This document shows, in pieces, positions 18,425 through 21,053 of a stretch of DNA of 55,238 nucleotides. Numbering within the stretch: position 1 is the stretch's first letter; every line of letters starts with the position of its first letter. The notes below the pieces were generated by a model that was not told the origin of the DNA, searched no databases, and saw nothing but the letters and a program-made list of their open reading frames with translations. Source of the stretch: Rhodothermus sp. (GTDB lineage: Bacteria > Bacteroidota > Rhodothermia > Rhodothermales > Rhodothermaceae); contig JAUZRN010000032.1 in the NCBI GenBank assembly GCA_030950375.1, forward strand, positions 1-55,238. Direction: 5' to 3'. A program made the position numbers and the translations under genes.

Positions 18425-21053
18425 TAAACAGGTCGATCCACTGCCCATCATCATCTGGTCCCTCGTCGAATTTTAATTCCCGAAAAGTTGCGAAATAATT
18501 GTCACCATTGTCACCATCGTCACCAAGCGGCGAAAACACGCTCAAATCGCCCGCCAGAGCGGATTTTCCCTCCTTTGCCGCGTGACAATGGGGTGACGTT
18601 TGGCCCTGAGCATTGTCACTAAACGTCACCGAAACGTCACCGGCAAAATCGCCCATTTGGGGCGATTCAGGCGCTTTTTTGTCAGGTGGTGACGTTTGTG
18701 ACGTTTGTGACGTTTGATTCGAAACTTTTTGGATTGAGATCATGCGGCACCTGTTGGTGCGGCTGCGCCGCACCACCACCCCGACCTGCAGCAGGGCCGG
18801 CTCCAGACGGGCCAGGGCCTGTCCGACACCCTGGGGCGTCCGGGGCCAACCCGTGGGTGGCCGCTCCAGCCCGTGGTGGTGGAGGAGCACTTCCAGAAGC
18901 TCGGCCGCCGTGCCTTCCCAGCTGCCCACCCGGTCAACGAATTCCAACACGGCCTCGGCAAAGGCGTCTTCCAGAAGCGTTGAAGCCAGCTCAGCCTGGC
19001 CCGCGCCGTAGGCCTCGAGAAACGCCTCCGCGGTGAATGGCAGCGCCGGCGCTGCCGCGCCAATGAATTGGGCGAAGTCTGCCATCCGAGGCAACTTCGG
19101 AAGCCGCACCCCTGCCTGACGCCGAAGGCCCATGCTCACCGCGTCAAGCAGCAAGCCGAGCAGCGCAGGCCGCGCCCGTTCAAAAGCTACCCACAGGTCT
19201 TCGACGCGTCGGCGCCGCTCCGGCGACATCAGCGTAAGCCGAACGGGCAGGCAACGATCGGCCAGATCTCCCTGCCGAACAAAGTCCGGAATACCATTGG
19301 CCAGGATGGGACGAACGGCCTCGAAGACGGCTTCGTCGCTATCTGTGTAGAGACGCCGCGTTCGGAACCCGCTGCCCGTCGCCAGCCGGCAGAGGCCGTC
19401 GGACAACCATTGCGGCAGACTCGAGAGATTATCGAAGACAATAGCGTGCGCGTGCTGTGCGTATATCGCAAGGTCCCGAAGCTCACGCGGCTGGGCGCTG
19501 AGCTGCGCCTGCTGCGGATCGATCAGATGGGCCAAAAGCCGGCAGGCCGTGGTCTTGCCGCTGCCCTGCGGCCCTGTGAAGACCAGCACCGGATAGGCCG
19601 GCAGCCCGGCCAGCGCTCCCACAAGCCACGACACGGCCAGAATGAAGCCCTGCCGATCTGTGGGAAGCAACTCCTGAAGCTGCTCCCAGCGCCCGCCCCG
19701 TTTCGGTTCCGGCAGCGGCAACAGTCCAGGCGGGCGCTCAAAACGTACGGGCAGCTCCCGGATGGACTTGATGCGCCATCCGCTCGCGTCGATCTCGACC
19801 GCCCGGGCGGCTTCATCCCCAAGGTCCAGGTAGATCCGGTCACCCTGCCGCGCCAGGCGCACGTGGACGGGGTGGCAGGGACCATCGAACCGGGCGATGG
19901 CCTCGAGTGTGGGCAGGGCGTCGGTGATCACCGACGTGCTGGCTCCCCTTTTTTCAGTCTGGTAGAACACTCTGGCCAGAAGCGTTCGGCCCTGCGCCGA
20001 GCCGAGGCGCACGCACAAGCCGCTGGCTGCTTGCAGATAGGCCTCACCACCTGGCGTGTGGAACAGCTTAAAATGGTCCTGCGCGTATTTGATCAAGCGT
20101 GAAACCTGGCTTTCATGCTTTGAATGAGACCTGTCGGGTTGCGGCGCCCGCTCCTCAACCTGCGTTGTCTGCTCCGCCCAGGCCCAATCTGTAAACGGTT
20201 GTGCGTCTGCCCGAAGTTGGCGCAGCTCCGCCCGCGTCCGATCACCGCAACGTTCGACAAAGTCGGCCGCGTCGCCGCCCGGTGGTGCATCGGCCCATTC
20301 GATCACGCGCACGTCCCGGGTCCCGAGCCGACGAAGCACCTGCCCGATCATTACCATATGGCGCCGACCGGGCTCGTCATTATCCGGCCAAAGGTAAATT
20401 TGATCAAATCCAAGCAGCGGCCGCAGCACATCGTCCGATGGGCATAGGTGGGCGCCGCAGACGGTGCCGACGGCATTTATTCCCTCAGAAAGCAGCGCAT
20501 CTGCCGTTTTCTCCCCTTCACAAAGAATTACCGCAGGCTTTGATCGGTCGAGGCGGTCTGTGCCGTACAGCGGCAGGTCAGCTGGAGAGAGGCCATTCAG
20601 GCCGGATTGCAACCTTCCATCGGGCCCCGGACGTAGCCAGGAGAATTTTTTCGAGCCGTCGCTGAATTCCTTGCGCCTGTGGATGGCCACCAGGCTGCCC
20701 TGCTCGTCGCGTAGTTCATAATCAACGTGCCGGATCAGCAGGGGTGGGGCCTTTTGCACAGCCGCCCCATCGCCGCCGGTGTTGGCCAGATCGCGCCAGC
20801 TCAGGCCGACAGCCTGAAGAACCTGCTCCGGCAAGCACCCGGCGAAGCAATGCAGTAGAATTCGGCCGTCGGTCGTCTCGGCGATAGACAGGCTCGGATT
20901 CCGATCGTCGTGCGCAGGGCACCGCGCCGTCCATTTTCTGCGGATGCCGCGCCGGGCGTCGGCGGGCGAAACCGAAACCTCACGAACGGCTGTGAGCCGC
21001 CTCAGCAGGGCAGAAACCCCGCCCTGAGTGTGCACGTTAATCTGCACAGCCAT
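18399..21053 (-). CDS. Island primase-helicase (CHC2 zinc finger, TOPRIM, P-loop ATPase)
   Basis: An 884-residue replication protein like those of phages, satellites and plasmids. In order: a primase zinc finger (Cys45-P-A-H48, Cys69-F-A-G-Cys73), a TOPRIM domain with VILCEGEKTADAL (Glu179) and LWPDNDEPG (DND at 224-226), and an ATPase domain with Walker A GPQGSGKTT (Lys500) and a hydrophobic strand plus acidic IVFDN for Walker B. The last 130 residues are low-complexity (QTSQTSQTS, GDDGDNGDN) and acidic; the DNA coding for them carries iteron-like repeats. The start at 21053 has GGGAGG upstream. It follows the HTH gene by 19 bp. It probably primes and unwinds at the island's own origin. Confidence 0.85.
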   Translation of the reverse strand: MAVQINVHTQGGVSALLRRLTAVREVSVSPADARRGIRRKWTARCPAHDDRNPSLSIAETTDGRILLHCFAGCLPEQVLQAVGLSWRDLANTGGDGAAVQKAPPLLIRHVDYELRDEQGSLVAIHRRKEFSDGSKKFSWLRPGPDGRLQSGLNGLSPADLPLYGTDRLDRSKPAVILCEGEKTADALLSEGINAVGTVCGAHLCPSDDVLRPLLGFDQIYLWPDNDEPGRRHMVMIGQVLRRLGTRDVRVIEWADAPPGGDAADFVERCGDRTRAELRQLRADAQPFTDWAWAEQTTQVEERAPQPDRSHSKHESQVSRLIKYAQDHFKLFHTPGGEAYLQAASGLCVRLGSAQGRTLLARVFYQTEKRGASTSVITDALPTLEAIARFDGPCHPVHVRLARQGDRIYLDLGDEAARAVEIDASGWRIKSIRELPVRFERPPGLLPLPEPKRGGRWEQLQELLPTDRQGFILAVSWLVGALAGLPAYPVLVFTGPQGSGKTTACRLLAHLIDPQQAQLSAQPRELRDLAIYAQHAHAIVFDNLSSLPQWLSDGLCRLATGSGFRTRRLYTDSDEAVFEAVRPILANGIPDFVRQGDLADRCLPVRLTLMSPERRRRVEDLWVAFERARPALLGLLLDAVSMGLRRQAGVRLPKLPRMADFAQFIGAAAPALPFTAEAFLEAYGAGQAELASTLLEDAFAEAVLEFVDRVGSWEGTAAELLEVLLHHHGLERPPTGWPRTPQGVGQALARLEPALLQVGVVVRRSRTNRCRMISIQKVSNQTSQTSQTSPPDKKAPESPQMGDFAGDVSVTFSDNAQGQTSPHCHAAKEGKSALAGDLSVFSPLGDDGDNGDNYFATFRELKFDEGPDDDGQWIDLFSEDDPPPF
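18498..18715. repeat. Iteron-like 9-bp repeats inside the primase 3' coding end
   Basis: The 9-mer GTGACGTTT occurs at 18593-18601 and three times in tandem at 18689-18715; its complement AAACGTCAC occurs at 18621-18629 and 18632-18640. A related tandem ATTGTCACC, ATTGTCACC, ATCGTCACC fills 18498-18524, and GTGACAATG (18582-18590) faces CATTGTCAC (18611-18619). An AT-rich stretch lies beside them (18470-18500). All share a GTGAC/GTCAC core. Such arrays next to a replication gene are typical of initiator-binding iterons. The repeats also encode the QTS and GDD/GDN repeats, so protein-level repetition is an alternative cause. Confidence 0.6.

Follow-up and report, generated by a model that had tools for sequence, protein, structure and literature searches.

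A candidate iteron replication origin within the coding end of a primase-helicase gene in an integrated Rhodothermus element

The window, by which we mean the whole stretch of 55,238 nt of Rhodothermus sp. DNA that was analysed, contains an array of short repeats at 18498..18715, inside the 3′ end of a primase-helicase gene. Very probably, this array is the iteron origin of a 6.6-kb element integrated at a tRNA-Ala gene and is bound by the winged helix of the element's own primase-helicase. An iteron origin had been proposed at this site by a sequence-only reading of the window; the proposal is supported here and is consistent with all tests run. The array repeats are real and constrained at the DNA level. 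We infer that the primase-helicase binds the array, that helicases load and melt the DNA there, that priming follows and that replication starts at this site.

Beyond this single element, we see an even chance for a more general statement: that in a widespread primase-helicase family the origin often lies within the DNA coding for the disordered tail, with the stop codon before, within or after the array, that the iterons turn over as a set at fixed geometry, keeping pace with the winged helix encoded only a few codons from them, and that each element carries a portable, mutually orthogonal one-gene initiator-origin cassette. This would point to a replicon made of one gene, whose initiator and origin move as a unit. 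It would also offer a simple origin finder for many unannotated prophages, integrative elements and plasmids, in which one would look at the final ~450 nt of the primase-helicase gene and right behind it. The 38 loci would moreover supply dozens of naturally paired initiators and iterons for studies of the winged-helix recognition code and of replicon orthogonality.

Repeat array, gene and integrated element

The array comprises 11 GTGAC/GTCAC cores. Six exact copies of GTGACGTTT, counted in both orientations, are all those present in the 55-kb window, and all were found where the sequence-only reading had placed them, four on the plus strand (18593, 18689, 18698 and 18707) and two inverse, read as AAACGTCAC (18621 and 18632). 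Also present are the triplet of similar repeats (ATTGTCACC at 18498 and 18507, ATCGTCACC at 18516) and the inverted pair (GTGACAATG at 18582 and CATTGTCAC at 18611) that it had listed. The cores are arranged in four blocks, two outer and two inner. One outer block (18689..18715, plus strand) consists of three tandem GTGACGTTT copies and the other (18498..18524, minus strand) of the ATTGTCACC, ATTGTCACC, ATCGTCACC triplet, both in 9-bp steps. The inner blocks are formed by CATTGTCAC and the two AAACGTCAC copies in 10-11-bp steps (18611..18640, minus strand) and by GTGACAATG and one GTGACGTTT with an 11-bp step (18582..18601, plus strand), so that the four core blocks read <<< / >>> / << / >>> on the gene strand (minus). 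This block order is an addition to what had been listed before, as are the flanking inverted repeats, with a left arm CCGAAAAGTTGCGAA (18480..18494, plus strand) and a right arm GATTCGAAACTTTTTGG (18716..18732, plus strand), and a hairpin AATCGCCC-ATTTG-GGGCGATT (18647..18667) in the spacer that separates an outer from an inner block, with a DNA fold of -12 kcal/mol (z -3.2). The AT-rich neighbourhood claimed for the repeats holds only in a mild form, with 54.5% GC in the array bin and mostly 52-70% in the element.

Against the 11 cores of the array, any other 220 bp of the window hold at most 2. Dinucleotide shuffles of the array region gave a mean of 0.66 cores (maximum 4). With the protein fixed and the codons redrawn, the mean was 1.6 (maximum 6 in 3000 draws), and permutation of the tail's own synonymous codons gave a mean of 3.8 (maximum 8 in 3000 permutations). 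Four combinations of frame and orientation occur among the 5-bp cores, which encode QTS, GDV, VTF, SDN, HCH and GDN. By pattern search, the tandem GTGACGTTT triplet occurs a single time in the 3.03-Mb assembly, and an exact search of the viral contigs gave no match to it.

The primase-helicase gene (18399..21053, minus strand) probably starts with the ATG at 21053 and then encodes 884 aa; the longest ORF starts with a TTG at 21134 and has 911 aa, and the ATG appears likelier because the opening codons of this longer frame cross a terminator-like hairpin at ~21070-21093. The N-terminal half matches a phage DNA primase (phrog_6088, 2.6e-27), with matches to dnaG (TIGR01391, 6e-8) below the cut-off and to Toprim and CHC2 both below the Pfam cut-offs. 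In the AlphaFold2 model of aa 330-911, pLDDT is mostly >90 up to ~aa 807 and then <50 almost throughout, and the predicted topology places a winged helix after a helicase. The proposed initiator would thus possess both a helicase and a C-terminal DNA-binding domain. The predicted winged-helix domain, the proposed iteron reader, comprises aa ~724-803 of the 911-aa ORF (18726..18965, minus strand), and the tail of aa 808-911 (18402..18713, minus strand; pLDDT <50), which ends with EDDPPPF, is predicted to be disordered. The array encodes aa ~808-878 and therefore starts where predicted order stops, which agrees with its earlier placement in a low-complexity linker at the end of the primase coding sequence. 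Since a disordered tail accepts almost any peptide, the array would be tolerated inside the gene.

The closest solved structure is the SaPI5 primase-helicase (PriRep; Foldseek E 1.2e-8; VIA-align Z 21.0, rmsd 6.0, 378 residues), followed in the fold ranking by poxvirus D5/E5. A PDB sequence search with the family profile found hardly anything beyond P-loop similarity to ABC transporters.

A separate observation concerns the extreme C-terminus. Primase tails in the phylum (window 18402-18425 and loci L005, L006, L007, L008, L009 and L010) end with a PF motif and are acidic in several cases (EDDPPPF, EDEAPF, EDEQVPF, TDAPF). The host SSB terminates with DDDLPF, and the primase tail ends are similar to this SSB C-terminal tip; judged by this similarity, the PF motif is a possible recruitment motif.

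The element extends from ~17.2 to 23.84 kb (6.6 kb) and is bounded by a 17-bp direct repeat, CCCCTTGTCTCCACTAC, one copy of which (attL, 17201..17217, plus strand) lies at the 3′ end of tRNA-Ala(CGC) (17141-17214) and the second (attR, plus strand) at 23827..23843. In the congener G395, the tRNA is directly joined to the right flank in an empty-site-like arrangement (L174), and an element right end is found at the same flank on another contig (L168). The element encodes an excisionase-like helix-turn-helix protein of 69 aa (21073..21282, minus strand; HTH_17 7e-14; phrog_66) and a tyrosine integrase of 399 aa (22404..23603, minus strand), and three of its ORFs gave no convincing family match in PHROGs and NCBIfam. 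A 339-aa ORF at 21381-22400 had no PHROG or NCBIfam match and a Pfam match only below threshold. No genes for packaging, interference or helper-phage induction were recognised in the element, which may or may not be a phage satellite. A nucleotide search of plasmids with the whole element gave no match, and the array is the single one found within its 6.6 kb. Near attR, GTGAACA/TGTTCAC motifs were noticed at 23738-23813, which are possibly arm sites of the integrase, and the AATGTTCACC...GTTCGAGAGATT end in this region recurs at an element end in G395 (L168).

Arrays in homologues and the proposed iteron reader

Scans with the single protein sequence detected 2 loci in genome contigs and 1 in viral contigs. 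The congener G008 harbors two near-identical primases with 62-64% identity to that of the window, and their arrays are built from a wholly different repeat, GGCGGAC, at nearly superimposable positions. Relative to the stop codon, the cores lie at -313, -304, -295 (<), -242, -231, -221 (>), -199, -188 (<) and -125, -116, -107 (>) in the window, and at -325, -316, -307 (<), -246, -235 (>), -212, -201 (<) and -152, -142, -133 (>) in G008, and the encoded peptides differ (QTSQTSQTS versus SALSALSAN). Other iterons were found in G030 (GGTGACAGC) and G227 (ACCGTCCGC). The window, G008 and G030 all retain outer inverted repeats of the CCAAAAAGTTTCGAA...TTTCGAAACTTTTTGG type, and the left-arm type of the window occurs also at L049, which has the congeneric GGCGGAC array, and at L005 and L006, despite different iterons. 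A Chlorohelix plasmid carries 12 copies of GCGTCAC, the first 9 nt past the stop codon, and Streptomyces plasmids carry GCGTCCC several hundred bases downstream of the gene.

Altogether, 38 homologous loci have significant arrays, which lie within the ORF, span its stop codon or follow it. Among non-redundant viral contigs, an array (one 7-mer present at least 5 times from -450 to +350 relative to the stop) accompanies 27 of 60 homologues versus 10 of 404 equal-sized stretches elsewhere; in about half of the homologues, the detector used found no array. Between related pairs, 304 of 413 repeat positions are conserved versus 568 of 1041 intervening positions, a figure somewhat biased by setting the repeat mask on one member of each pair. 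This conservation counts against the pattern that the sequence-only reading had set as a refutation of its own proposal, a peptide repeat kept while the DNA repeats vary by synonymous changes; homologues instead lose the peptide repeat and keep the DNA array in place, in some cases 3′ of the stop codon. A mirror-symmetric block order is clear in G008 and in the Chlorohelix plasmid and was not supported as a family-wide rule, the mean excess being not significant (0.018, sd 0.102, n=37). GC skew was uninformative in three small plasmids.

Several further arrays were observed in passing. Just after a G008 primase, a second array (L071, 9174-9430; repeat CGTCAG) has the same block geometry and looks like the fused 3′ remnant of another element. 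The two G008 primase genes (L071/L072) show 43 differences in the ~245 nt upstream and zero over the next ~500 nt into the array, a contrast in sequence that suggests recombination or strong constraint. A third G008 primase (L075; G008:C1, ~61.4-63.8 kb) is alike in the N-terminal half but looks unrelated in the helicase half; a short cluster of AACCGAA/TTCGGTT repeats is nevertheless present in the sequence coding for its C-terminal part. In the genome of the window itself, a 44-bp piece of the spacer that holds the hairpin recurs with 87% identity on contig C9; further arrays there (L002, G000:C9; 860-1000 and 1190-1320), with GTGGC-type and GGTGCCA-type repeats, surround similar spacers and have a phage capsid-like gene on one side and a tRNA-Arg gene on the other.

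The winged helix of the primase-helicase is proposed as the iteron reader on the basis of sequence covariation, which was compared within the primase-helicase for the winged helix, the helicase and five upstream segments. In a set of 37 arrays, the similarity of the iterons is correlated with the identity of the winged helices (r 0.337). The correlation persists when helicase identity is controlled (partial 0.250, 0/2000 permutations), the partial effect of the helicase being almost nil (0.051). It also persists against each of the five upstream segments of 75-80 aa, including the adjacent one (partial 0.219, 1/1000). The covariation is support rather than proof, since the physical linkage of winged helix and array could contribute to it.

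Alternative explanations and proposed mechanism

A low-complexity peptide repeat selected as protein might yield DNA repeats by chance, and QTSQTSQTS and GDDGDNGDN are indeed repetitive. We rejected this peptide-level explanation, the chance of which appears negligible, because the identical DNA core stands in four frame/orientation combinations, the core count lies above the synonymous nulls, and homologues encode different peptides or have their arrays outside the ORF. Insertion of a dispersed chromosomal repeat (REP or MITE-like) into the gene is very improbable as well. The spacer piece shared with C9, beside two further arrays, would fit such an origin, but the C9 arrays have different iterons and, with these and their location near a capsid-like gene and a tRNA-Arg gene, look like remnants of similar mobile elements; moreover, the GTGACGTTT triplet is unique in the genome.

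It is unlikely, if conceivable, that the primase binds the iterons mainly for copy control, incompatibility or autoregulation, as with P4 crr or by handcuffing, while melting occurs elsewhere. Numerous copies in both orientations would fit titration or looping too, and P4 has a second required iteron region, which counts for such a role. The name crr appears in PMC6092414. On the other hand, the array is the only one found in the element, its adjacent spacers, hairpin and flanking inverted repeats are origin-like, and known relatives use this position as origin (PMC7581432, PMC6092414). Quite improbable is a site for another protein, the element's helix-turn-helix protein or a host factor, which controls excision or transcription and is merely located in the gene: a helix-turn-helix protein is encoded next to the primase, and the flanks and spacers keep their motifs even where the iterons differ, but the arrays accompany the primase-helicase gene also in plasmids and phages whose neighbouring genes are unrelated, and the iterons covary with its winged helix in the comparison made within the primase-helicase.

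As an iteron origin, the array would function as follows. The winged helix of the element's primase-helicase would bind the ~9-bp iterons. The block layout, in which the outer triplets face opposite ways and so do the inner groups, would allow D5/SF3-type helicase hexamers to form in opposed orientations. These helicases may melt the array spacers, and the fused Toprim-type primase could then start synthesis. When the specificity shifts in a lineage, all iteron copies would change together with their spacing kept.

Comparison with known replication systems

The iteron origin adjoining a primase-helicase gene is an already known kind. The parallel to satellites with the origin beside rep, drawn by the sequence-only reading, is supported by the nearest solved fold, that of SaPI5, and by family iterons just 3′ of rep (PMC7581432). 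SaPI Rep, apparently in the form of two hexamers, uses its C-terminal domain to recognise iterons located immediately after rep, and in SCCmec the Cch2 protein binds direct repeats that follow its gene (PMC7581432). In PICI origins, two sets of iterons surround an AT-rich region, presumed to be where melting occurs (PMC6092414). Whereas the origin of SaPI/PICI Rep (PriRep) follows the gene, the array of the window lies at the 3′ end of the gene but inside the coding tail, and helper-phage and packaging genes were not recognised in the window's element.

The alpha protein of P4, as described in PMC4234260, unites a Toprim-type primase, a helicase and a C-terminal winged helix and acts on short origin repeats. 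The protein of the window has primase PHROG matches and a predicted winged helix, with its Toprim and CHC2 matches below the Pfam cut-offs; unlike P4 with ori and crr, the 6.6-kb element showed a single array and has a different gene content. For the Streptomyces plasmid pFP11, which replicates by the theta mode, RepA was reported to bind its iterons (PMC3583192; RepA of pFP1/pFP11). The pFP11 gene homologous to the helicase/winged-helix half, presumably this published RepA, is likewise followed by an iteron array, but at a distance of ~400-730 nt, and primase/polymerase is encoded by a separate gene. ORF904 of pRN1 is likewise a single protein that unites a primase, an SF3 helicase and a winged helix, and the origin lies just 3′ of its gene (PMC4234260), but this origin has a stem-loop instead of iterons and the primase is archaeo-eukaryotic. 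In the lambda-type origin, the initiator's iterons lie within its own coding sequence, the O gene (PMC7466680); this is compared only as an analogy. The lambda-type origin lies mid-gene, and its initiator is neither helicase nor primase. Relative to the open literature searched, an array inside the disordered tail, with the stop codon before, within or after it in different elements, may be new, and the same may apply to the wholesale replacement of iterons at near-constant geometry in congeneric elements.
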